From NCBI GenBank assembly GCA_025924315.1, contig JAICIO010000057.1, positions 1 through 35,728 on the forward strand: a DNA stretch of 35,728 bases, read 5' to 3'. Positions within the stretch are counted from its first letter, which is position 1. Each line of letters begins with the position of its first letter. A model generated the notes under the pieces. That model was not told the DNA's origin. It saw nothing but the letters and a program-made list of their open reading frames with translations, and searched no databases. Positions 4,544 to 35,724 of this stretch are shown here, in pieces. Position numbers and translations under genes: made by a program. Source of the DNA: Phycisphaerae bacterium. GTDB taxonomy: Bacteria > Planctomycetota > Phycisphaerae > Tepidisphaerales > Tepidisphaeraceae.

Positions 4544-7500
4544 ATGCGTTTGAAAAAACTCATCCTTCACGGCTTCAAGAGCTTCGCGGATCGAACTGAG
4601 TTCGTGTTCGATTCCCCGATCACCGGCATTGTCGGGCCCAACGGCTGCGGCAAGAGCAACGTCGTCGACGGATTCAAGTGGGTGCTCGGCGAGCAGAGCG
4701 CGAAATCCCTGCGCGGCGAGGCGATGCTCGACGTCATCTTCAACGGCTCCGGCGGGCGCAAGCCGGCCGGCATGGCCGAAGTGGTCCTCGTCTTCGAGAA
4801 CCCCAAGCGCGAAGATGGCTCGCGGCATCTCAACATGGATGTCGATGAAGTCGCCGTCGGCCGCCGTCTCTTCCGCGACGGCACCAGCGAATATCACCTC
4901 AACAATACCGCCTCGCGATTGAAAGACATTCGCGAGCTGTTCCTCGACACCGGCGTGGGCGTCGATGCCTACAGCGTGATCGAGCAGGGCCGCGTCGCGG
5001 CGATGCTCGAATCCAACCCGGCCGAGCGACGCCTCATCTTTGAAGAGGCCGCCGGCATCTCGAAGTACAAGGTCAAAAAGAAAGAAGCCCAGCGCAAGCT
5101 TGAGAAGGTCGATGTCAATCTTACGCGCCTCAACGACATCGTCGAAGAAGTCGAGAAGCGCCTGCGCAGCGTCAAGATCCAGGCCGGCCGCGCGCGAACG
5201 TACCAGGAATATTCCGTTCGGCTCGGCGAGCTGCGCCTCACGTATTCGCTTCAGGAATATCACACGCAGAAGCAGCAGCTGACGAACCTCGAAAGCCAGC
5301 GCGACGACTTCCAGTTCCGCCTCGATGACGCCAGCGGGAATCTCCAGCGATCGCAGAACGCTCTGGCCGAGAAGCGGGAGAATTTCGACGCGCTCTCGCA
5401 GACCAAGCAGCGGCTGGAATACGAGCTCGTGCAGGCTCGCGCCCAGATGCAGTCGGCGCAACAAGCTCAGCAATATGCGACTCAGCAGCTTCAGCAGATC
5501 GCGGATCAACTCGAAGCGTTCGAAGCTGACCGAGTAGCCGCAGAGCAACGGTCTGCGGAGGTCTGCGCGTCTTTGGAGACGGAGCAAACGAATCTCGAAA
5601 CCCTCACCAACGAGCTGAACGAAAAGCGCCAGACGATCGAACAGCGGCAGCAGGCCTTTCGCGACGGGCAGCTTCAGCTCAACGCGCTCGCCCAGCAGAT
5701 CGAGCAGAACAAGTCCGCGATCCTCGACCTCATGCGCAAGCTCGCACAGGTCAACAGCCGACTCGCGTCGATCGAGATCGAACAGAAAAACATCCAGCAG
5801 CAGCAAACGCGCCTGGCGGATCGCCGCCGCGTCGTCGTCGATGAGATCGCGCAGATCGACGCGAAGCGCAGCGAGCTTCAGCAGAAGCTGCAGGAGATCG
5901 TCGCGCGAATCGAGCAGGAACAGATCCAGCTGACCGACAAGCGAAACGAATCCGCGAACCTTGGCAAGCAGATCGCCTCGATCGGCGAACAACTCGGCGC
6001 CGCGAAGGAACATCGCTCGGGTCTCATCTCCCGACAGAAGCTGCTCAAAGATCTCGAAGCGCGAAGAGAAGGCGTGAGCGAAGGCGTGAAGTCCGTCCTC
6101 CGCCAGCGCGAACAGAGCTTCAGCTTCATCGTCGGCCTCGTCGCCGACATCCTGAGAGTCGATGTCGAGCACGCCCACGTGATCGAAGCCGCCCTCGATG
6201 GCCGCGACCAGTGGCTCGTCGCCCAGGACTCCGCTTCGGCTCAAGCCGCGCGCGAAGCCCTCGAAGACCTCGAGGGTCGAGTCAACATCCTCGCCCTCGA
6301 TGAACTGAGCACCTGCGGTCGTGACACGGGCTTTCAGCCCGTGCAGGCCGCGCCGGAAGGTCTGCTCTCGATCGAAGCCGAAGAGCACGGCCTGAAAGGC
6401 CGTGTCACGGAGGCGCCGTATGACTGGCAACGGCACAGTCAACGCATCCGCATCGCGAGCGACCTCATCCGCGTCGAACCGCAATACGCCGCCCTCGCGA
6501 AACACCTTCTCGGTCGGACCGCCGTCGTGGATTCGCTCACCGATGCGGCTGAACTCCACAAGAATGGCCCAACCGATTGGCGTTACGTCACACTGCATGG
6601 CGAAGTCCTCGAAGCCGATGGCACGCTCCGCGCCGGCCCGCTCACCGCCGCGATGGGCCTGCTCTCGCGACGTTCCGAGCTCGAAGCGATCGACGCGCAG
6701 GTCCAGGAAGTCGACGTGCGCATCGCGTCGCTCACCGAACAACTCAGTCACGGCAACGCGAGCGCGAAGGCGCTCGCGGAAGAAGAGAACGCGCTCCGCA
6801 ACGCGATCTACCAATCCAACACGCAGAAGGTCGAGCTCACCAGTCAGATCTCGCAGACGACCGATCGTCTCGGCCTGCTCAACCGCGAGCAACCGCTCCT
6901 CGATCGCGAACTGCAAGGCCTGCTCGATCAGGTCGGCCGTCTCACCGATGAAGACACGCGCCTCACCGAGCAACGTCAGACGCTCGAAGGCGACCAGGTC
7001 TCGCGCCAGCAGTCGATCGAAGAGATGTCCGCCCAGCACGACCAGCTCGCCGAAGACATAAAGCACTGGAACGAAGAGCTGACGACCGCTCGCGTCTCGC
7101 TCGGTCAAGTTCAGGAGAAACAACTCGCGAGCCAGCAACAGGTGCAGCGCCAAACAGCGGCGAAGGCCGAGCTGACTCAGCAGATCGATCGCATCGTGAA
7201 ATCCGCTCAGTCGGTCGCCGCTCGACGCGAATCGGTCGAAGCCGAGCTCGACGAAGCGAAGCGCAACGAAGCCGGTCTCGTGCAGCGTCAAACCGAGCTG
7301 ACCGAAGAGACCGAATCCAAGGCCCGGCTGCTTCAGCAGCAGGGAGAAGAACTCAAGAACCTCACCGGACAGGTCGAGTCGCTTCGCGCCGAACACGCCG
7401 AGCTCGAACACAAGCTGCACAACGTGCAGCTCGAGATCGGCCAGCTCACCGTTCGTCTCGAGACGCTCGTCCAGCGCACGCTCGAAGAGCTGCAGCTCGA

Positions 7501-9239: not shown

Positions 9240-11345
9240 TCACCCCGGCATGATGTTGATCGGGTTGTAAGGGACGTTCAACCAGTTCATCACGATCCCG
9301 CTGACGAGCCAGAACCCCGCGGCGGCGGATTCGCCTACGATCAGGCCGATGAAGAACGGTTTCGCGGCGGCGTAGGCGCGGGATCCGCCGAATCGGACGA
9401 TGAGCAGCTTCGCGAGCCAACCTAAGAAGATGCTGAACCAGAGCTGGGCGGCGGGGAAGGTGTCGAGCATCAAGTACCCGATCGGATGCAGCGGCCACCA
9501 CGTAAAGCGCAATCGTAGAAAAGCCAACAGGAGTGTGAAGCAGAACCCGAATGTCCAATGCCCCGCGACGCTGGTGGGGCTGTAAAAGGTTTGCCGCTTG
9601 TATTGCACGGTGGCGCTGGAGAGATAGCCGGGGTTGGTCTGCGCGCCCCATTCGTTGATCGGCGTGCGGGCGGAGATGTCGCGCGTCGAGGCGTAGTGGT
9701 ATTCGGTCCAGAGCATGCTCGAGAAACTCGTGAAGTACCCGACGAGGAGTGAGAGAGCGAGAAGGGCGACGATGCGGCGACCGGTCGAGCGCTCGGAGGG
9801 TTCGGGGTTCAGGGTTCGGGGTTCAGTGGCAGAGGCCTTTTCTTCTACTGAACCCTGAACCACGAACCCTGAACCCTCCTTAAACACTGCTTCATCGGTG
9901 AGTTTCAGCCCGTGTGAGGCGTACACCGGCATCGTCTCGCGCATGTCGAAATGGACCGTTTGGAGCATGTGGCACAGGAAAAACGACTTCGTGTTGATCG
10001 CCATTCCCCAGCCGGCGCCGGAGAACATCCGCCATGGTTCGATCAGGGCGACACGCAGCTGACCGTGAACTAAACCCGCCTCGGCGATGATGCGCGTCAG
10101 GACCAAAAATAGCAGAAGCAATAATAGGATCGTGACGACGGCGGCGTGGATCTGGCAACCGGCGAGCATCAGGAAGCCCACCATTACAACGATGCATGCG
10201 ACGAGCCCCCAGAAGGCGAAGCGATATGAGAGATACCGTCCGCGGGGCTCATCGGCGCGTTCGCCACGGAAGGCTTGCCGGATCACCATGCCGAAATGCT
10301 TTCGGCCGATCCAGAAGATCGACAGGGCGAAGGCGATCACCGCGCCGAAGTGTTCGTCGGGTTGACCGTACGGTGTGGGGTCACCATAAAACAACCCCAG
10401 CACCACGCGCTCGCCGTTCCAGAGGATGTAGAAAAACCATAGGCTGAATGCGATCGACGACGGCAGGAAATACGCGGCGCCGACGGCGGTGAAGAAGATC
10501 GCGGAATCCTTGATCTTCGTGTCCACGTACGCCCACGGCGGTTCGCTGAAGAGGCTCCACAGATCGTAGCTCACCGGGATGTGCACGAAATGTTTCGGGT
10601 CGTAGCGGGCCATTCCGTTCCACGCGTGCAGCAGAAAAACCGCGAAAAATGCGATCCAGAAGACGCGTTGCCGCAGGATCTCGTTGAACCAATTGCCCTT
10701 TTTCGGCGCATCGATGAGTGCGAACTCGATCTGTGCAAGCGGGAACGCGAGGCGCTCGTTCTCGAACCATTGCCGGCGGACGATCACGACGATGCACATC
10801 AGTGCGCCGTAAAGCGCCGCGAGAAAAGCGCCCCACGCGAGGATCGGCACGACCCATGCGAAATAGGGTGGCGCGCCGGGACCGGTCCATCGGCCGATGA
10901 ATCCCGTTATCACCGGATCGGTCACCCACTCGCGCGGGGTATTGCCCGAAAATCGTGGAAACAACCAATGCGGCAGATTCCACTGCTCGAGCAGTGCGCG
11001 AAACTCCTGGCTTTCACCGGCATCACGAAATGGGATGATGAGCGACCCAGGCAGGTAGCGCATGAGCCCGCTGCTCGGAAGCGTGCAACTGACAAGCATC
11101 ATCGAGAACGCGACCGCCATCTCGCCGGATGTGAACGCGCGATGTGGCTTCCATCTCGACAACGGCCCGTTGACGAGCAGCGCGAAGAGGAATGCGAGCA
11201 TCACGGCGCCCAGCGGCAGGTTGTTGCCGACGAGGAAGGTGTTGTTCAGCGCGTAGTCGTTGTACGGCGTGAGCGCGCAGATCAGGACCACACCGGCGAG
11301 GCCGATGAAGACGGACCGCCAGGTGATGGCGCGGGTCGGCATCAT
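9240..11345 (-). CDS. DUF6785/DUF6784-like polytopic membrane protein
   Basis: This is a membrane protein of about 701 residues with a dozen or more hydrophobic segments. The conserved-looking parts (PYNDYALNNTFLVGNNLPLGA, SSGLMRYLPGSL, RIIAEAGLVHGQL, and the C-terminal VGESAAAGFWLVSGIVMNWL) fit the large OPT-like membrane proteins that are common in planctomycetes and labelled DUF6785/DUF6784. Transport is likely from topology, but the substrate is unknown. I chose the ATG at 11345, close to the first helix; an ATG at 11342 and a GTG at 11408 are possible, and none has a strong ribosome site. Residues about 490-517, between two membrane segments, are encoded by an in-frame inverted repeat (9795-9879) read as SGFVVQGS...TLNPEP. 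The gene converges with the unknown gene at 8380-9207. Confidence 0.72.
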   Translation of the reverse strand: MMPTRAITWRSVFIGLAGVVLICALTPYNDYALNNTFLVGNNLPLGAVMLAFLFALLVNGPLSRWKPHRAFTSGEMAVAFSMMLVSCTLPSSGLMRYLPGSLIIPFRDAGESQEFRALLEQWNLPHWLFPRFSGNTPREWVTDPVITGFIGRWTGPGAPPYFAWVVPILAWGAFLAALYGALMCIVVIVRRQWFENERLAFPLAQIEFALIDAPKKGNWFNEILRQRVFWIAFFAVFLLHAWNGMARYDPKHFVHIPVSYDLWSLFSEPPWAYVDTKIKDSAIFFTAVGAAYFLPSSIAFSLWFFYILWNGERVVLGLFYGDPTPYGQPDEHFGAVIAFALSIFWIGRKHFGMVIRQAFRGERADEPRGRYLSYRFAFWGLVACIVVMVGFLMLAGCQIHAAVVTILLLLLLFLVLTRIIAEAGLVHGQLRVALIEPWRMFSGAGWGMAINTKSFFLCHMLQTVHFDMRETMPVYASHGLKLTDEAVFKEGSGFVVQGSVEEKASATEPRTLNPEPSERSTGRRIVALLALSLLVGYFTSFSSMLWTEYHYASTRDISARTPINEWGAQTNPGYLSSATVQYKRQTFYSPTSVAGHWTFGFCFTLLLAFLRLRFTWWPLHPIGYLMLDTFPAAQLWFSIFLGWLAKLLIVRFGGSRAYAAAKPFFIGLIVGESAAAGFWLVSGIVMNWLNVPYNPINIMPG
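9795..9879. repeat. In-frame inverted repeat, GGGTTCGGGG family, copy 1
   Basis: Arms at 9795-9827 and 9847-9879 consist of alternating GGGTTCGGGGTTCA-type words facing their complements. The element is inside the DUF6785-like coding region and keeps the frame. On the coding strand it reads EGSGFVVQGS then TLNPEPSE. The second copy, in the VWA gene at 23100-23187, is read in the same frame and orientation. Confidence 0.88.
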
Positions 11346-21098: not shown

Positions 21099-23597
21099 AT
21101 GCAGCGAGTTTGGGAAATTCTCCTGGGGCTTCGTCGCGGGTTTCTCTCGCAGCAGGGGGATTTTGCGCTGTCGTTCAATCCGCAGTGGCCGGGGCAATCG
21201 GTGGTGGGGGCGGCGACGTGGAATGTGTTGCTGGCGATCGTGGCGCTCTTGCTGGTGATCTATGTCTACCGCCATGAGGGAAAATCGCGCGGCGTAAAGA
21301 TCGTGCTTGGCGTGTTGCGCGGGGCGCTGCTCGCGCTGGTGATCGCGCTCTTGAATCGGCCGGTGTTGACATTAGGACAGAGCCGCACGGAGCCGTCGGT
21401 CGTCGCGATCATGGTTGACGACAGCATTTCCATGCGCGTCCGCGATGTTCCGACCGGGGCGAATGAAGCGGAGTCGCGGTTGGAAGGGGCCATGCAACTG
21501 CTCGGCGATAAAGACCGGGGATTGATCAAAGATCTGTCGTCCAAGCATCAGGTGAAGTTGTATCGGTTTGATTCGACGGCCCAGCCGATCACGGAAAAAG
21601 GACGCGAAACCGCAAGCGGCGATCGAACGTCGCTTGCGATTTCGCGTCCGTCTACCGAGCCTTTCGATATTGAGCCAACCGGGCAGAATACCCAGGTTGC
21701 AAAATCGATTCGTGGAGTGCTCGACGATCTTCAGGGTCAGCGGCTTGCAGGTGTCGTCGTGCTGACGGACGGGCGCGATACGCCCGCAGAGCCGCTCGCT
21801 GAAGCGATCGACGCGGTGAAAGAGTTTGGGGTGAAGGTGTATCCCGTCGCCGTCGGGTCGGAATCGGCGCCGAAGAACATTGATATTCAATCCGTCAGCG
21901 TGCAGGACAGCGCGTTCAAAGGCGACATCGTCAACATTCGCGTCGCGGTTCGAGCCACCGGCTTTGAGCCGAATCATCCGGTCACACTTCAGCTGAAGGA
22001 CAAGAAGTCCGGTCGGCCGATGCTGGATCTCAATGGCAATCCGGTTGAGGCGAAGGTGACGCTGCCGGACAGCAATCCGGTCGAGGCGGAGCTGCAGTTT
22101 CAGCCCATGGATGTGGGTCCGCTGGATCTGACGATCGAAGCGGTGAAGCAGGCGGGGGAGATTGATGACGCCGACAACATTCGCACCGCGCAGATCAACG
22201 TGCTCGACGCGAAGATCAGCGTGCTGTACGTCGATGGATATCCGCGGTGGGAGTATCGGTATCTGAAGACCGAGATGATCCGCGACAAGACAGTGGATAT
22301 TTCGTGCCTGCTGACCAGCGCCGATCCGACGTTTCGCCAGGAGGGCGATAAGCCGATCACGCGGTTTCCGGAATCGATTGAGGAAATGCTCGACTACGAC
22401 GTCGTGCTTTTCGGCGATGTCGATCCGCGACAGTTTTCGGATGCGCAGTTACAGCTGGTGAACGATTTCGTCGCGAATCGCGGCGGCGGATTCGGGATGG
22501 TCGCGGGACCGCGCTGGAGTCCGGCGGCGTATCACAACACGGCCATTGAGCCGATCCTGCCGGTGAACATCACGAAAGTGCAGCCCGACGATTCGAAGAC
22601 GTCGATCACGCAGGGATTTCGCCCGAGCGTGACGAAGCTGGGGTACGACTCGTCGATCTTCCGCTTCTTCGCGGATCGGGATGCGAATGAGAAGTTTCTC
22701 AAGGATCAGCTGCAGCTGATCTTCTGGTATTGCAAAGGCGTGACGACGAAAGCCGGCGTCGGCGAAGTGTACGCGGAGCATCCGACGGACATGGGACCGG
22801 ATGGCCGCAAGGCGCCGCTGCTGGTTTTGGGGCGGTTTGGGGCGGGGCGAACGCTCTTCTCCGCGATTGATGATTCGTGGCGATGGCGGTTCTATACCGG
22901 CGAGTCGGTTTTCGACACGTACTGGGTGCAGCAACTGCGGTATCTGGCGCGGAGTAAGAAGCTGGGCCAGCGCCGGCTCACGTTTACTTCCTTGCGTCCG
23001 ACCTATGAGCTGGGACAGCAAGTCCACGTGCAGATGCGCGTGGTCGATCCGAAGTTGCTGCAGCAACTTCCGAATGAGCTTCGCGTCGAAGTGACCGAAG
23101 AGGGTTCAGGGTTCGGGGTTCAGGGTTCAGGAACAACCCACCCCGCGACTTCTTCACTGAACCCTGAACCCCGAACCCCGAACCCTTCTGGTGCCGTGGT
23201 GCGACAGGAAACGCTCGTGAAGGAAGAGGGACAGCCGGATCTATATGTTGCATCGTGGACGGCGGATCGGATTGGTCGATTCGTCGCGAAGCTTCCACCG
23301 ATCGTCGGTGGGGTGGACGAGATGAATCTGCCCGTCGAGGTGATGGTGCCGAAGCTTGAGCTTGCCCAGCCGCAGGTTGATCGGGCGTCGCTCAATCGTT
23401 TGGCGACGGAGACGATGGGCCAGACCGTGACCCTCGCGGACGCCGAGCAAAAACTGCCGAACCTCATCCAAAGCGCCGCGAAGGTCATTCCCATCGAATC
23501 GAGCCAGCGCCTGTGGGACGCACCTTTGGTTCTGATTCTGTTCGTTTTTCTGATTACGACGGAATGGGTGATGCGTAAGATTTACGGCATGGTGTAG
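21099..23597 (+). CDS. Membrane protein with VWA and amidotransferase-like domains
   Basis: This 832-residue protein belongs to the second, longer VWA type found next to MoxR clusters. It has two N-terminal helices (about residues 40-58 and 70-88), a VWA domain with the metal motif DDSISM, and later GVVVLTDGRDTP. A long extracytoplasmic region follows with VLYVDGYPRWEYRYLK and a glutamine-amidotransferase-like part (DYDVVLFGDVDPRQF, GGGFGMVAGPRWSP). A C-terminal helix comes last (PLVLILFVFLITTEWVMRK). The ATG at 21099 was chosen because the 23 in-frame codons upstream are pure repeat sequence. Residues about 668-697 are encoded by an in-frame inverted repeat (23100-23187), giving SGFGVQGS...LNPEPRTPNP. 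The stop TAG runs into the next repeat. It probably works with the BatA-like protein in the membrane. Confidence 0.9.
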   Translation: MQRVWEILLGLRRGFLSQQGDFALSFNPQWPGQSVVGAATWNVLLAIVALLLVIYVYRHEGKSRGVKIVLGVLRGALLALVIALLNRPVLTLGQSRTEPSVVAIMVDDSISMRVRDVPTGANEAESRLEGAMQLLGDKDRGLIKDLSSKHQVKLYRFDSTAQPITEKGRETASGDRTSLAISRPSTEPFDIEPTGQNTQVAKSIRGVLDDLQGQRLAGVVVLTDGRDTPAEPLAEAIDAVKEFGVKVYPVAVGSESAPKNIDIQSVSVQDSAFKGDIVNIRVAVRATGFEPNHPVTLQLKDKKSGRPMLDLNGNPVEAKVTLPDSNPVEAELQFQPMDVGPLDLTIEAVKQAGEIDDADNIRTAQINVLDAKISVLYVDGYPRWEYRYLKTEMIRDKTVDISCLLTSADPTFRQEGDKPITRFPESIEEMLDYDVVLFGDVDPRQFSDAQLQLVNDFVANRGGGFGMVAGPRWSPAAYHNTAIEPILPVNITKVQPDDSKTSITQGFRPSVTKLGYDSSIFRFFADRDANEKFLKDQLQLIFWYCKGVTTKAGVGEVYAEHPTDMGPDGRKAPLLVLGRFGAGRTLFSAIDDSWRWRFYTGESVFDTYWVQQLRYLARSKKLGQRRLTFTSLRPTYELGQQVHVQMRVVDPKLLQQLPNELRVEVTEEGSGFGVQGSGTTHPATSSLNPEPRTPNPSGAVVRQETLVKEEGQPDLYVASWTADRIGRFVAKLPPIVGGVDEMNLPVEVMVPKLELAQPQVDRASLNRLATETMGQTVTLADAEQKLPNLIQSAAKVIPIESSQRLWDAPLVLILFVFLITTEWVMRKIYGMV
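23100..23187. repeat. In-frame inverted repeat, GGGTTCGGGG family, copy 2
   Basis: The arms 23100-23130 and 23157-23187 face each other inside the VWA gene. They are read as SGFGVQGS and LNPEPRTPNP, the same frame and orientation as the copy in the DUF6785-like gene (9795-9879). The loop sequences differ. Confidence 0.9.
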
Positions 23598-28004: not shown

Positions 28005-29090
28005 ATGCGTAAAGCCGTTGTGACATCGCTCTTGTCTCTCGCTTTCTTAGGTTCTGCGCTCGCCCAGCCGAAGCCCATCTCCCCCGAAGGCATCGCCAAG
28101 CAACCCAATCAGGTGCGCGGTGACGAGATCACGCCGAAGCAGCAGGAGGCGGTGGACAAAGGCCTGCGTTGGCTCTCGGCGCATCAGCAACCGGACGGCG
28201 CGTTTGGTGGCGAGAGCGGCGCCACGAAACATGCAGGTGTGACGGCGATGGCGGGGCTCGCGTTCATGGAAGCGGGGAATCTGCCCGGCCGTGGGAAGTA
28301 TGGCGACAACGTGCAGAAGTGTGTGGATTTCGTGCTGTCGTCTTCACAGGAATCCGGATTGATCACGTCGGATCAAACGCAGGGTCCGATGTACGGCCAC
28401 GGTTTTGCGACGCTGTTCCTCGCGGAAGTGTATGGCATGACCGGCGACGAGCAGGTGAAGGAAAAGTTGCAGAAGGCGGTGCGACTCATTCAGAAGACGC
28501 AGAACGCCGAGGGTGGCTGGCGCTATCAGCCGGTGCCATATGAAGCGGACATTTCGGTGACCATCTGCCAGGTAATGGCGCTGCGCGCGGCGCGCGACGC
28601 GGGGATCAAGGTCGAGAAGGAAGTCATCGACAACTCGATCAAGTATGTGCGATCGTGCCAGAATCTGGATGGCGGGTTCAGCTACATGGCGCACCAGAGC
28701 GGCGGCGGGGGCCCGAGCGGTTTCGCGCGCTCCGCCGCGGGTTGTGCGGCGCTCTACTACGCCGGCGTGTTCGAAGGCGATGATCTCAAACGCGGCCTCG
28801 ATTACGTCTTCAAATACATTCCCACGCGCGGCAACGCCGGCGCCGAGGGCATCGAAGGCCATTACTATTACGGCCACTACTACGCGGTGCAGGCGATGTT
28901 CCTCGCGGGCGGAAAATATTGGGAAAAATGGTATCCCGCGATTCGCGATCAGCTCATCAACAAGCAGCTGAGCAACGGCTCATGGCAAGGCGATTTCGGC
29001 GAAGATTACGCGACGAGCATGTCGCTGATCATTCTGCAAATGCCCAACCGCTACCTCCCCGTCTACACCGGCAAAGGCCCGGGAAGCTGA
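28005..29090 (+). CDS. Secreted prenyltransferase/squalene-cyclase-fold repeat protein
   Basis: This 361-residue protein has a signal peptide (MRKAVVTSLLSLAFLGSALA, cleaved near residue 20). The remainder consists of alpha/alpha repeats of the prenyltransferase/terpene-cyclase type: WLSAHQQPDGAFGG, IQKTQNAEGGWRYQ, VRSCQNLDGGFSYM and LSNGSWQGDFGEDYATSMS show the Q..DG.F/W pattern. The DXDD motif of true cyclases is not visible, so catalysis of triterpene cyclisation is doubtful; planctomycetes have many such proteins of unknown role. The ATG at 28005 gives the signal peptide; no ribosome site is seen because a repeat ends just upstream. The stop TGA overlaps the next ATG (TGATG), so the following NPCBM gene is translationally coupled and probably functionally linked. 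Confidence 0.88.
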   Translation: MRKAVVTSLLSLAFLGSALAQPKPISPEGIAKQPNQVRGDEITPKQQEAVDKGLRWLSAHQQPDGAFGGESGATKHAGVTAMAGLAFMEAGNLPGRGKYGDNVQKCVDFVLSSSQESGLITSDQTQGPMYGHGFATLFLAEVYGMTGDEQVKEKLQKAVRLIQKTQNAEGGWRYQPVPYEADISVTICQVMALRAARDAGIKVEKEVIDNSIKYVRSCQNLDGGFSYMAHQSGGGGPSGFARSAAGCAALYYAGVFEGDDLKRGLDYVFKYIPTRGNAGAEGIEGHYYYGHYYAVQAMFLAGGKYWEKWYPAIRDQLINKQLSNGSWQGDFGEDYATSMSLIILQMPNRYLPVYTGKGPGS

Positions 29091-30469
29091 TGCGATTTAT
29101 GTCGAATGCTTTTGGTAGGGTGCGCTTCAGCGCAGCGGTTATTCGTCTTTTCGGGGCGAATGAAATAACCGGTGCGCTGACGCGCACCCTACACGAGCGC
29201 GTCGGACCGCAACGTAGGGTCCGCTTCAGCGGACCGGTTACTCTTTTCTCGAGCGGAGAAGTAACCGGTCCGCTAAAGCGGACCCTACAAGGCCTGTCAG
29301 TATTGCTCGTTCTTCTTGTTGGTTCTTCTTCATTCGCCCAAGACGACTGGACCCTCACCACCGCCGATTTCCAATCGCATCGCGTGACGCTCTCGGCCGT
29401 TTCCGATTCCGGCATACAGGTCATCGAATCGGGAAAGGCGGCGACGATTCCGCTCGATCAATTCCTCGATCTCGATCGAATGGTGACCGCGCCAGCTTCG
29501 CCGTCCATGATCGTGTATCTCATCGGTGGCGATCGCCTCACGGGAATGCCGTTGGGCATCAAAGACGAGCAATTGCAGTGGAAGCAACCACTTCTCGGCG
29601 AGGTGAAGCTTCCGCTGAAGCGCATCGTCGCGATCGCGAAGGCCGGGCAAAATCCGCCGCGGGAGGATGAGGCGCGCACGGAGGATGTGGCGACGCTCGC
29701 CAATGGCGATACGGTTCACGGCATCGTCGCCACGCTCACGAGCGACACCGCCACGATTAGCGCAAACGGTCAGGATGTTCCCGTCCCGCTGTCATCGATC
29801 AACGTGCTCTCGTTCGCTTCGACCGGCGAAGCGAAACCGCCGCCGCCCGCGCGCGGTTTCCGCGTCTCGCTCGCGGATGGGTCCGCGTTTACCGGAACCA
29901 AAATCGAGCTGCAAAAGGATAGCCTCCGCCTCACGCCCGGAACCGGCGATGCGCGCAGCATTCCGCTGCCCAGCGTCGCGCGCATCGAGCAAACCAACGG
30001 CCCCGTCAGCTGGCTCGTCTCACGCACGCCGACTGAGAACGTGCAGATTCCGTACTTCGCGTCGCAAACCCAGCCTGCGAAGATGGGCCTGAGCGTCGAT
30101 GGACAACCGATCCGCGTCGGCGACAAAACCTATCCGCATTCCATCGGCGTCCATTCCTATTCGCGGCTCGTTTACGCACTTGATCCCGCGTACAAAACGT
30201 TCCGCACCGAATTCGCGATCGACGGCAATCTGCCCTACGCCAACGTCACGATCCGCATCAAGCTCGACGCCAAAGTCGTGCACGAGCAAAAAGACGTCAC
30301 CACCAACACGCCGCTCAAGCCCGTCGTGCTCGAACTGAACGGCGCCAAGCAGCTCACGCTCGAAGTCGATTACGGTAAAACCTACGACGTGCAGGACCGC
30401 CTCAACTGGATCGAGCCGGCGTTGCTGAAAACTGCTCCGCCCGCCTCTACTCCCTCAACTCAGCCATAA
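29090..30469 (+). CDS. Secreted NPCBM-domain protein with repeat-interrupted signal peptide
   Basis: This is a 459-residue protein. Its C-terminal domain (about residues 318-452) has the NPCBM/NEW2 hallmarks YPHSIGVHSYSRLVYAL, FRTEFAIDG, VTIRIKLDAKVVHE and LTLEVDYG, a carbohydrate-binding beta-sandwich. The middle part contains beta-rich repeats with LADGSAFTGTKIEL-like words. The start ATG overlaps the stop of the upstream gene. Oddly, the first eight residues (MRFMSNAF) are separated from the hydrophobic core LSVLLVLLVGSSSFAQ by about 58 residues encoded by two tandem inverted repeats (29115-29288). Either translation really starts at 29090 and export tolerates a long n-region, or an internal start after the repeats is used; I see no ATG there. 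It is probably exported and bound to sugars of the envelope. Confidence 0.85.
   Translation: MRFMSNAFGRVRFSAAVIRLFGANEITGALTRTLHERVGPQRRVRFSGPVTLFSSGEVTGPLKRTLQGLSVLLVLLVGSSSFAQDDWTLTTADFQSHRVTLSAVSDSGIQVIESGKAATIPLDQFLDLDRMVTAPASPSMIVYLIGGDRLTGMPLGIKDEQLQWKQPLLGEVKLPLKRIVAIAKAGQNPPREDEARTEDVATLANGDTVHGIVATLTSDTATISANGQDVPVPLSSINVLSFASTGEAKPPPPARGFRVSLADGSAFTGTKIELQKDSLRLTPGTGDARSIPLPSVARIEQTNGPVSWLVSRTPTENVQIPYFASQTQPAKMGLSVDGQPIRVGDKTYPHSIGVHSYSRLVYALDPAYKTFRTEFAIDGNLPYANVTIRIKLDAKVVHEQKDVTTNTPLKPVVLELNGAKQLTLEVDYGKTYDVQDRLNWIEPALLKTAPPASTPSTQP
29115..29192. repeat. In-frame inverted repeat, GTAGGGTGCGCTTCAGCGC family, unit 1
   Basis: The arms 29115-29143 and 29164-29192 lie within the coding start of the NPCBM gene and read GRVRFSAAVI and EITGALTRTL. 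The same family is present as a perfect copy at 35647-35724 and as a single arm at 33697-33725. Confidence 0.9.
29214..29288. repeat. In-frame inverted repeat, GTAGGGTCCGCTTCAGCGG variant, unit 2
   Basis: The arms 29214-29242 and 29260-29288 form a second tandem unit, read in the same frame as unit 1 (RRVRFSGPVT and EVTGPLKRTL). All GTGCGC words are replaced by GTCCGC and the partner words by GCGGAC, so the pairing is preserved. It is a distinct subfamily. Confidence 0.9.
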
Positions 30470-30533
30470 TTTTCGTCTTCGACGGGGATGTGGTATATTC
30501 TCGCGATCGGGGCGATCGTTTTTTCATTTCATC

Positions 30534-30547
30534 AGGAGGGGACATTG
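30534..30547 (+). promoter_or_regulatory. Ribosome site favouring a TTG start
   Basis: AGGAGG at 30534-30539 stands 5 nt before TTG at 30545. This box decides the start of the surface protein; no comparable site precedes the ATG at 30488, and TATATT at 30494-30499 between them could instead be a -10 box. Confidence 0.6.
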
Positions 30548-32797
30548 GCTTCCCAGAACTTCCGCATCGAGGGTCTCGAAACGCGCACTCTTTTCGCGGC
30601 GATGCCGACGTCCTATACCGGCGTGAGCTTTGAGGTCGGCCGCCTCGTCGCCGATCCGACGCGCAATCTCGTCTACGTCACCGATAAAACAAACAGCCGC
30701 GTGTTGGCGGTGGACACTACGCTTGGCCGGACCGTCACGAGTCGCAAACTCGGCGGGGTCCCGTTTGGGCTGGCGCTGTCGGCCAATGCGGATCGATTGT
30801 TCGTTTCAGAGCCGGGGACGTTCAAGGTCGAGGTGTATTCCCTTCCGAATCTAAATCTGCTCAAGACGCTGAACCTCGGCTACGCGGCGAACAACATCGC
30901 GGTCGGGGCGAACGACAAGCTGTATTACGTCGGCGGCGGCGCGCCCGGGTCGTCGATCGTCGAAGTGGATGCGGAAACCGGCACGGGCTTCCGCGGGGTG
31001 GGTGGGAGTTATTATTCCCCGCTGCTTCATACCAGCGCCGACGGAACGAAGATGTATGTGCGCGAGACCGGCCTGAGCGGCGCAGGCGGAGGCGTCGATG
31101 AGTACGACGTGAGCGGCGCGATCACCGCGGCGAAGACACATACTTACGCGGCACCATTAGAGAACAGCATCGACTTTACGGTGGATGAACAACATCGTCG
31201 CCTTTACACGGCCGACGGAGGCGTGTACGGCGTGGGTGTCACGAACATGGACACGAATGCCGAAGCGGTGTGGTCGTACGGGGCGCCCTACTCGGCCGCG
31301 GTCGCCACACTCCCCAGCGGGTCGCTCGTTTACGGCGCATCCTATTACGACGGCGTCTTCGAATTCGATAAAGCGACCGGAACAAAGCTGAACAATTACT
31401 TCAGCAACGATACTTATGCGATCATGCACGAAGGGATGAAGATCACTCCCAACGGGCATCTGTTGCTTGGCGAGAACTATTGGACCGGCACGTCGGCGGG
31501 ATATCTTTATCGCCTCAGTTCGATTGGAACGTCATCGGTTGTGGTCGACGATGTGCCGGTCGCGCGCTTCACGGACACCGCCGGATCAAATGGCCTGTTC
31601 TCCTTCGATGCGAGCACTTCGGAGGCATACAAATCGAACGAGACGATCACCAAATACGACTGGAACTTCGGCGACGGCTCGACGGCGAGCGGCGTGAATG
31701 CTTCGCACACCTTCGCGGCCGGCACCCACACCGTTACGCTGACCGTCACGAGTTCATCCGGGTTGACTGACGATTTCGTTGCGCAGGTTCAGGTGGGCGC
31801 GGTGGGCTCGGGCGGATCGATCGCCGGCACCGTTTACAACGACGCGAACGGAAACGCCAAGCGCGACAGCGGCGAAGTTGGTGTCGGCAACATCACGGTC
31901 TACAACGACGCAAACAACAACAGCAAACTCGACAGCGGCGAGAAGACGACCGTGACGGATGCAAACGGCGCGTACACGCTGAGCGGTCTCTCCGCCGGCC
32001 CGTACAAGATCCGCGAGATCCTGCAGTCCGGCTGGTCGCAGACGACGCCGGCGAACAACTACGGTTGGACGATTTCGCTGGCGAGTAATCAGAATCTCGG
32101 CGGCAAGGATTTCGGCACGCGGCAAAGCATCGTCGGGACGGGTGGATCGATCGCCGGAATGGTCTGGAACGATCTCGACGGCGATGGCGTGAAGGATTCG
32201 AACGAAGTCGGCGTCGCGAACATCACGGTTTACAACGACGCCAACAACAACAGCAAGCTCGATAGCGGTGAGAAGACGACGATCACCGACGCGACGGGTG
32301 CTTACAAGCTGAGCAACCTGTCCGCCGGTTCGTACAAGATCCGCGAGGTGCTGCAATCCGGTTGGAGTCAGACGACACCCGCGAACAATTATGGTTGGAC
32401 GATCTCGCTCGCGACGAATCAGAACCTCACCGGCAAGAACTTCGGCACAAAGCAATCGGTCGTCGCCGCCGGTGGAAAGATCAGCGGAACGATCTTTAAC
32501 GACCTCGATGGCGATGGCGTGAAAGACAGCAACGAAATCGGCGTCGGCTCCGGCTGGATGGTTTACATCGATCTCGACAATGATTCGGTGCATGATTCGA
32601 ACGAACTCTTCACGACAACCGACAGCAACGGCGACTGGACGCTGAGCGGTCTGGCGGCGGGAACGTACAAAGTGCGGCAAGTTCTGCAAACTGGTTGGAA
32701 GCAGACCACGCCGACGAACAACTACGGCCTGAACGTTACGCTTTCGACGAATCAATCGGTGAGCGGGAAACTCTTCGGCTCGAAGCAAATCGCTTAA
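30545..32797 (+). CDS. Secreted surface protein: LEPR-XLL-like, propeller, PKD, three SdrD-B units
   Basis: This protein of about 750 residues starts with RIEGLETRTLFAA, which resembles the LEPR-XLL N-terminal motif of planctomycete extracellular proteins. A beta-propeller-like region follows (LVYVTDKTNSRVLAVD, RLFVSEPG, LYYVGGGAPG), then a PKD domain (ITKYDWNFGDGSTASG...HTVTLTVTSSSG). Last come three SdrD-B-like units of 110 residues each, with GTVYNDANGNAKRDSGE-type calcium-binding loops and AGPYKIREILQSGW. I prefer the TTG at 30545, because AGGAGG lies 5 nt upstream; the in-frame ATG at 30488 has no such box. The role is probably adhesion or an outer-surface structure. The stop overlaps the convergent gene's stop by three bases (32795-32797 against 32794-32796). 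Confidence 0.85.
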   Translation: MASQNFRIEGLETRTLFAAMPTSYTGVSFEVGRLVADPTRNLVYVTDKTNSRVLAVDTTLGRTVTSRKLGGVPFGLALSANADRLFVSEPGTFKVEVYSLPNLNLLKTLNLGYAANNIAVGANDKLYYVGGGAPGSSIVEVDAETGTGFRGVGGSYYSPLLHTSADGTKMYVRETGLSGAGGGVDEYDVSGAITAAKTHTYAAPLENSIDFTVDEQHRRLYTADGGVYGVGVTNMDTNAEAVWSYGAPYSAAVATLPSGSLVYGASYYDGVFEFDKATGTKLNNYFSNDTYAIMHEGMKITPNGHLLLGENYWTGTSAGYLYRLSSIGTSSVVVDDVPVARFTDTAGSNGLFSFDASTSEAYKSNETITKYDWNFGDGSTASGVNASHTFAAGTHTVTLTVTSSSGLTDDFVAQVQVGAVGSGGSIAGTVYNDANGNAKRDSGEVGVGNITVYNDANNNSKLDSGEKTTVTDANGAYTLSGLSAGPYKIREILQSGWSQTTPANNYGWTISLASNQNLGGKDFGTRQSIVGTGGSIAGMVWNDLDGDGVKDSNEVGVANITVYNDANNNSKLDSGEKTTITDATGAYKLSNLSAGSYKIREVLQSGWSQTTPANNYGWTISLATNQNLTGKNFGTKQSVVAAGGKISGTIFNDLDGDGVKDSNEIGVGSGWMVYIDLDNDSVHDSNELFTTTDSNGDWTLSGLAAGTYKVRQVLQTGWKQTTPTNNYGLNVTLSTNQSVSGKLFGSKQIA
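31811..32794 (+). repeat. Three tandem 330-nt coding repeats (SdrD-B units)
   Basis: The units start at about 31811, 32141 and 32471, a period of exactly 330 nt or 110 codons. Units 1 and 2 are closest (NITVYNDANNNSKLDSGEKT is identical in both); unit 3 is more diverged in the middle. The exact period suggests duplication within the gene. Confidence 0.85.
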
Positions 32798-33696: not shown

Positions 33697-33725
33697 AATA
33701 ACCGGTGCGTTGAAGCGCACCCTAT
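33697..33725. repeat. Single repeat arm, GTAGGGTGCGCTTCAGCGC family
   Basis: AATAACCGGTGCGTTGAAGC and the following bases match one arm of the family at 35647-35724, but no partner arm is visible nearby. It fills the 61-nt gap between the two zinc-ribbon paralogues and provides the TAG stop of the upstream one. Confidence 0.75.
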
Positions 33726-35646: not shown

Positions 35647-35724
35647 CGTAGGGTGCGCTTCAGCGCACCGGTTATTCGCCTTTCGAACGGGAGAAATAAC
35701 CGGTGCGCTGAAGCGCACCCTACG
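35647..35724. repeat. Perfect inverted repeat, GTAGGGTGCGCTTCAGCGC family
   Basis: The arms 35647-35676 and 35695-35724 are perfect inverted copies over 30 nt with an 18-nt loop. Each arm contains GGTGCGCTTCAGCGCACC, itself a hairpin. It is the reference copy for the units at 29115-29192 and the single arm at 33697-33725. Confidence 0.95.

Follow-up and report, generated by a model that had tools for sequence, protein, structure and literature searches.

Can a protein still be directed to the Sec pathway when two repeats separate the beginning of its signal peptide from the hydrophobic core? The question is raised by a gene of an environmental bacterium, found in the window, that is, the whole stretch of 35,728 nt that was analysed. 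The first-pass annotation had reported that repeats at 29115-29288 split the signal peptide, and had left open whether a very long n-region is exported or translation starts in another way. The split itself was borne out: the protein begins with MRFMSNAF from an ATG that shares letters with the stop of the upstream gene (TGATG), and an insert of 174 nt (78 + 21 + 75, divisible by three) places 58 stop-free codons, in frame, behind the n-region and ahead of the hydrophobic core; after these codons the sequence continues with LSVLLVLLVGSSSFAQ. The gene is widespread among the genomes searched (Table 1), with a relative at 46% identity in a Phycisphaerales MAG. We propose, with a probability of about 0.68, that two mobile REPIN-like palindromes were inserted in frame between n-region and core, that they are translated, and that Sec export is retained.

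The repeats had been described as tandem; instead, both belong to a family of palindromes that is dispersed through the genome. They are alike at 84-87% over 30-32 nt, and each is itself a long inverted repeat, with an arm complementarity of 93% in palindrome 1 and 97% in palindrome 2. The arms are of the type GTAGGGTSCGCTTCAGCGSACCGGTTA, every arm being a small palindrome behind a GTAG tag, and the outer arm ends carry GTAG in all four arms at this site and also in an alignment of 30 copies. The predicted RNA fold of the insert has an energy of −122.3 kcal/mol against −64.9 (sd 4.7) for shuffled sequences (z = −12.2), and none of 200 shuffles was as good. An Rfam search of the window gave no match. 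The arm pattern, with at most three mismatches, matched the 6.57-Mb genome 412 times forward and 404 times in reverse (816), whereas the same pattern read backwards gave 0 + 0 matches; the palindromes are therefore not a product of chance. A stricter arm pattern occurred 785 times in this genome and 0 times in each of 26 relatives. Other copies have the arms in common while loop and flanks differ, and the copy number suggests that the family is mobile.

GTAG-tagged REP dimers are known from many phyla including Planctomycetes (Di Nocera et al., PMC3733652), and REPINs were defined in PMC3116915. The two palindromes are REPIN-like REP dimers of this kind: GTAG outer ends, inverted doublets whose arms form one hairpin, and hundreds of dispersed copies, mostly extragenic. 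Unlike in REPIN systems, no RAYT flanked by these arms was found among the 10 PF01797 matches of the genome, each inspected for flanking arms, and the family was therefore filed by structure as REP dimers and not as a proven REPIN-RAYT system. The best PF01797 match (L030), the single match flanked by arms on either side, was considered as a RAYT and ruled out by its sequence, which shows a transposase of the IS200 type enclosed in a dimer loop; this IS200/IS605-type gene, at 1316-2058 of the locus (contig C56 of genome G000), lies between both arms. The RAYT-like genes L031 and L032 have no arms within 1.5 kb, and for a match at a contig end (L086) an arm lies at 4798, beyond another gene. 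By eye, each of the five tandem pairs of Table 1 seems to join dimers of different subtypes, GTGCGC next to GTCCGC; a mixed member occurs in two of the pairs, and the spacers of the five are unrelated.

Table 1. Features of the split gene, of the palindrome family and of related loci (window coordinates unless a contig, C, or locus, L, is named)
Feature	Position	Strand	Remarks
Upstream gene, prenyltransferase/squalene-cyclase-like toroid	28005-29090	+	Pfam PF00432, PF13243; TGA overlaps next ATG
Split gene, 459 aa	29090-30469	+	Pfam NPCBM (PF08305) at residues 324-445; 47 of 61 searched genomes, own genome counted in, have homologues
Native start and n-region MRFMSNAF	29090-29114	+	L058 has the identical TGATG junction, L049 a similar one
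Palindrome 1, 78-nt REPIN-like REP dimer, GTGCGC subtype	29115-29192		arms 29115-29143, 29164-29192
Spacer, 21 nt	29193-29213	+	differs from spacers of other tandem pairs
Palindrome 2, 75-nt REPIN-like REP dimer, GTCCGC subtype	29214-29288		arms 29214-29242, 29260-29288
Native hydrophobic core LSVLLVLLVG and c-region SSSFAQ	29294-29341	+	putative cleavage after A83
Tandem pairs of dimers	29115-29288; C27:23048-23214; C18:25908-26095; L078 1123-1285; L007 about 1401-1575
Further complete dimer of the family	35648-35723		near contig end
Paired 7-nt tandem repeats (AGGGTTC then CTGAACC type)	9797-9877; 23101-23186		look like a second intergenic palindrome family
Two 330-nt tandem copies (78% matches)	31873-32546		in gene 30488-32797 with SdrD_B domains
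In-frame element, MMLKRF [element] ALTTAGILLMTTTLAQA	C78:8101		transglutaminase-like PF01841
In-frame element, MLPRFLLR [element] VVSILLIAQHALA	C14:43749		element visibly diverged, still in frame
In-frame element, MRTRNS [element] RFFAWTFVLGVVMVQPAIA	C14:55315
In-frame element before core	C9:61072		weaker case, short core
5'-end repeats or palindromes of the same gene in relatives	L045 1279-1504; L052 1342-1448; L054 1393-1470

We then compared the split gene with its orthologues, as the first-pass annotation had suggested, looking for a short uninterrupted signal peptide. This is mostly what they have: by eye, 14 of 21 same-family loci carry ordinary-looking signal peptides, with 21-31 residues from Met to a conserved Trp. 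The upstream prenyltransferase-like gene precedes the homologue in 18 of the 21; moreover, the junction in L058, GGAAGCTGATGCG, has the same letters as ours (TGATGCG), and the ATG of L049 likewise overlaps the stop. Because of these short signal peptides, the kept upstream gene and the two junctions, ATG 29090 looks like the ancestral start and the insert like a new one. Removal of the insert gives MRFMSNAFEGLSVLLVLLVGSSSFA, which falls inside the orthologue length range, although it is an approximate empty site and would be 7 residues longer with the spacer retained. In two relatives (G016 and G021), unrelated multi-copy palindromes stand between the upstream gene and the core, with 47-nt arms in L052 and perfect 30-nt arms in L054, and have many more copies in their own genomes (40 candidates scored in each). 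Since a start past the palindrome yields a good signal peptide in L054, and possibly via TTG in L052, these palindromes are probably untranslated. Another locus, L045, has repeats of the GCAAAATG type, of which the second block encodes the hydrophobic core.

Is the split gene a single accident? A census covered 2,374,316 nt in 28 whole or partial contigs, for the most part the largest ones, together with the window and with C56 and C78, which were picked for a hit. It yielded 135 dimers and 56 single arms at a looser setting that gave 11 matches for the reversed pattern. Relative to the 1,954 genes called by a home-made gene finder, 90 dimers are intergenic, 34 touch a 3' end by exactly 4 nt (the TAG stop), 6 lie within a gene, 4 over a 5' end and 1 over a 3' end by 51 nt. 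As read by eye, six dimers in five genes (the split gene and four others, Table 1) stand in frame between the start codon and the signal-peptide core; C78 is not a random sample, an element in a long frame having already been seen there, and without it the count is four genes. The orthologues of the C78 gene (L240, L241, L242) begin with uninterrupted signal peptides, as do the homologues of the C9 gene (L276, L285), while C14:43749 had no match, and C14:55315 a single weak one, in 26 other genomes. The remaining candidates were set aside: the elements at C22:14285 and C5:11182 are C-terminal tails, those at C8:81135 and C20:60621 precede an evident start, C21:38900 was judged doubtful, C31:52594 (L229), in spite of an in-frame ATG upstream, shows an evident start past the element and does not resemble a signal-peptide gene, and the open frames through elements on C35, C151 and C208 did not look gene-like by eye. 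No further case appeared among 28 more dimers in 24 loci outside the census, chosen by similarity and not at random, and the similarity-picked loci L209-L238 returned only the split gene and C78 again.

Signal peptides were called by a simple home-made rule with three parts, a basic n-region, a hydrophobic core and small residues at −3/−1, and all densities and P values given here depend on this rule and on reading by eye. The rule marked 557 of the 1,954 genes, with n-regions totalling 14.7 kb; the five genes were put among the 557 although their long forms exceed its 15-residue limit. Element density is 0.34/kb in n-regions (five loci), 0.46/kb in intergenic DNA (90 dimers and 36 gene ends counted; 124 dimers give nearly the same value) and 0.001/kb in the remaining coding DNA (two loci, or three if C5 is counted). 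The probability that at least five of the seven loci within coding sequences fall in n-regions is 3.5e-10; without conditioning on the seven, a Poisson model gives P = 0.0017 (five loci) or 0.011 (four loci), and the comparison of five hits among the signal-peptide genes with none among the rest has a Fisher P of 0.002. Because insertions elsewhere in genes are surely purged by selection, the density contrast shows that the n-region is a permissive site, and not a targeted one.

The reading frame of the element bears on this permissiveness. Dimers of a length divisible by three usually leave just a single frame free of stops: it was open in 77 of 106 readings, the other two frames in 1 and 5 of 106. 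Its mean net charge is +4.5, and its product is of the type RVRFSGPV...TGPLKRTL. As the only open frame is usually basic, a frame-preserving insertion adds a basic stretch, which is bearable for an n-region. We rejected the basic frame as evidence of selection, since at such lengths the element by its own sequence largely imposes it. At the other end of genes, 36 gene ends (34 dimers) take their TAG stop from the GTAG of an element, a single arm at 33699-33725 of the window being also listed, and no more than 2 elements at a 3' end are read through, a share well off the 1/3 that random phase would predict. IS200/IS605 elements use a host GTAG as insertion target. The same target would explain the peak of TAG stops. 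Among the five genes with a split signal peptide, however, a net gain of 71 or 74 nt per element would shift the frame in four, and for these we discarded it by reasoning.

Which start is then used in the split gene? The in-frame start codons are only ATG 29090, ATG 29099, GTG 29120 and TTG 29303, and the products of the first three contain palindrome 2 in full and palindrome 1 almost entirely. The long form passes the three-part rule, with its core at residue 69 behind an n-region of 68 residues (11 K/R against 3 D/E). It counts against this reading that the empty site (MRFMSNAFEGLSVLLVLLVG...) itself fails the rule, with a net charge of zero. One could imagine that the palindromes form an untranslated leader, translation starting at TTG 29303 or CTG 29294 and the upstream frame being open by accident. 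Many, in several species most, N-terminal REPs are indeed held to be untranslated (PMC3733652), L054 and possibly L052 seem to behave in this way, and an AAGG stands about 10 nt before TTG 29303 in a region predicted to be partly unpaired (mean unpaired 0.44, against 0.22 for the mostly paired start region 29075-29092). However, the TTG and CTG starts both fail the rule, since the 13-16 residues that remain carry no positive charge, the TGATG junction is conserved in L058, and in the C78 and C14:43749 genes no start codon past the element keeps a whole signal peptide, so that we consider such a leader improbable. Since starts past the insert give no recognisable signal peptide, the best and most likely reading is that both palindromes are translated into a 68-residue basic n-region, within a predicted signal peptide of about 84 residues. 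Between the two possibilities of the first-pass annotation, the orthologues, the L049 and L058 junctions and the failure of TTG and CTG thus favour the long n-region.

It is also conceivable that the insertion broke export, leaving a useless N-terminus or a dying gene, and a strong hairpin directly past the start could reduce translation. This appears unlikely to us in view of the 460 intact codons and the conserved gene pair, of two insertions that together preserve the frame, and of four more genes that are alike, including C14:43749, where a diverged element is still in frame. An assembly artefact at a highly repeated element in a genome of 262 contigs is hardly credible, given that the gene order across the insert matches 18 of 21 relatives, that the two elements differ in subtype and that their flanks are unique.

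The scenario that we favour is that two mobile palindromes of the REPIN-like kind were inserted next to each other into a Sec-type signal peptide, where its n-region meets the hydrophobic core. The 174 nt, spacer included, keep the frame and hold no stops, and ribosomes would read both palindromes after initiation at the TGATG junction, probably by reinitiation. The product would be a basic n-region followed by the original core and cleavage site, in which the usual open frame of the element may supply the positive charge; the insert would remain cytoplasmic and be removed along with the signal peptide. In Sec recognition, positive charge before the hydrophobic core counts more than the length of the n-region. 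As the open frame is also basic, the n-region would tolerate the insert; translation, export and cleavage of the long form are predicted.

In-frame REPs and REP dimers in genes, as well as TAG stops donated by REPs, have been published (PMC3733652). The text of that paper, as far as the search covered it, holds most N-terminal cases to be untranslated and has nothing on signal peptides, nor did we see there, unlike TAG donation, a phase bias of elements at 3' ends; its supplementary list of intragenic REPs lay outside the search and may hold cases. Rickettsia palindromes (RPE) found in frame within genes have been reviewed (PMC10969869); by description, they are similar in that some are N-terminal in proteins said to be expressed (PMC10969869, PMC3733652), and they differ in phylum and in the elements themselves, while our in-frame cases cluster at signal-peptide n-regions. 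Autotransporters have extended signal sequences, in which a long stretch at the N-terminus precedes a Sec signal peptide that is ordinary in other respects (PMC2805444), as proposed here; unlike in their described domain organisation, the extension here is a lineage-restricted palindrome insertion, in an NPCBM-domain protein. Literature searches for signal peptides in connection with REPs, RPEs or mobile elements gave nothing relevant, and one on Opitutus was likewise empty. The in-frame REP dimer is known; it is the recurrent insertion of REP dimers into signal-peptide n-regions that we did not find described.

As the usual frame-preserving peptide is strongly basic and ends with LKRTL, insertions into n-regions could be near neutral. 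We speculate, as a tentative possibility short of an expectation, that n-regions are a coding niche for mobile palindromes, in which such insertions take over the charge and become a recurrent source of new n-regions. In any case, the n-region is a part of coding sequence in which a dispersed palindrome persists at a density close to that of intergenic DNA, and natural insertions make the length tolerance of Sec n-regions measurable. The finding also suggests that REPs at N-termini need not in every case be mistakes of annotation, and it offers a route by which mobile DNA may become translated sequence of exported proteins.
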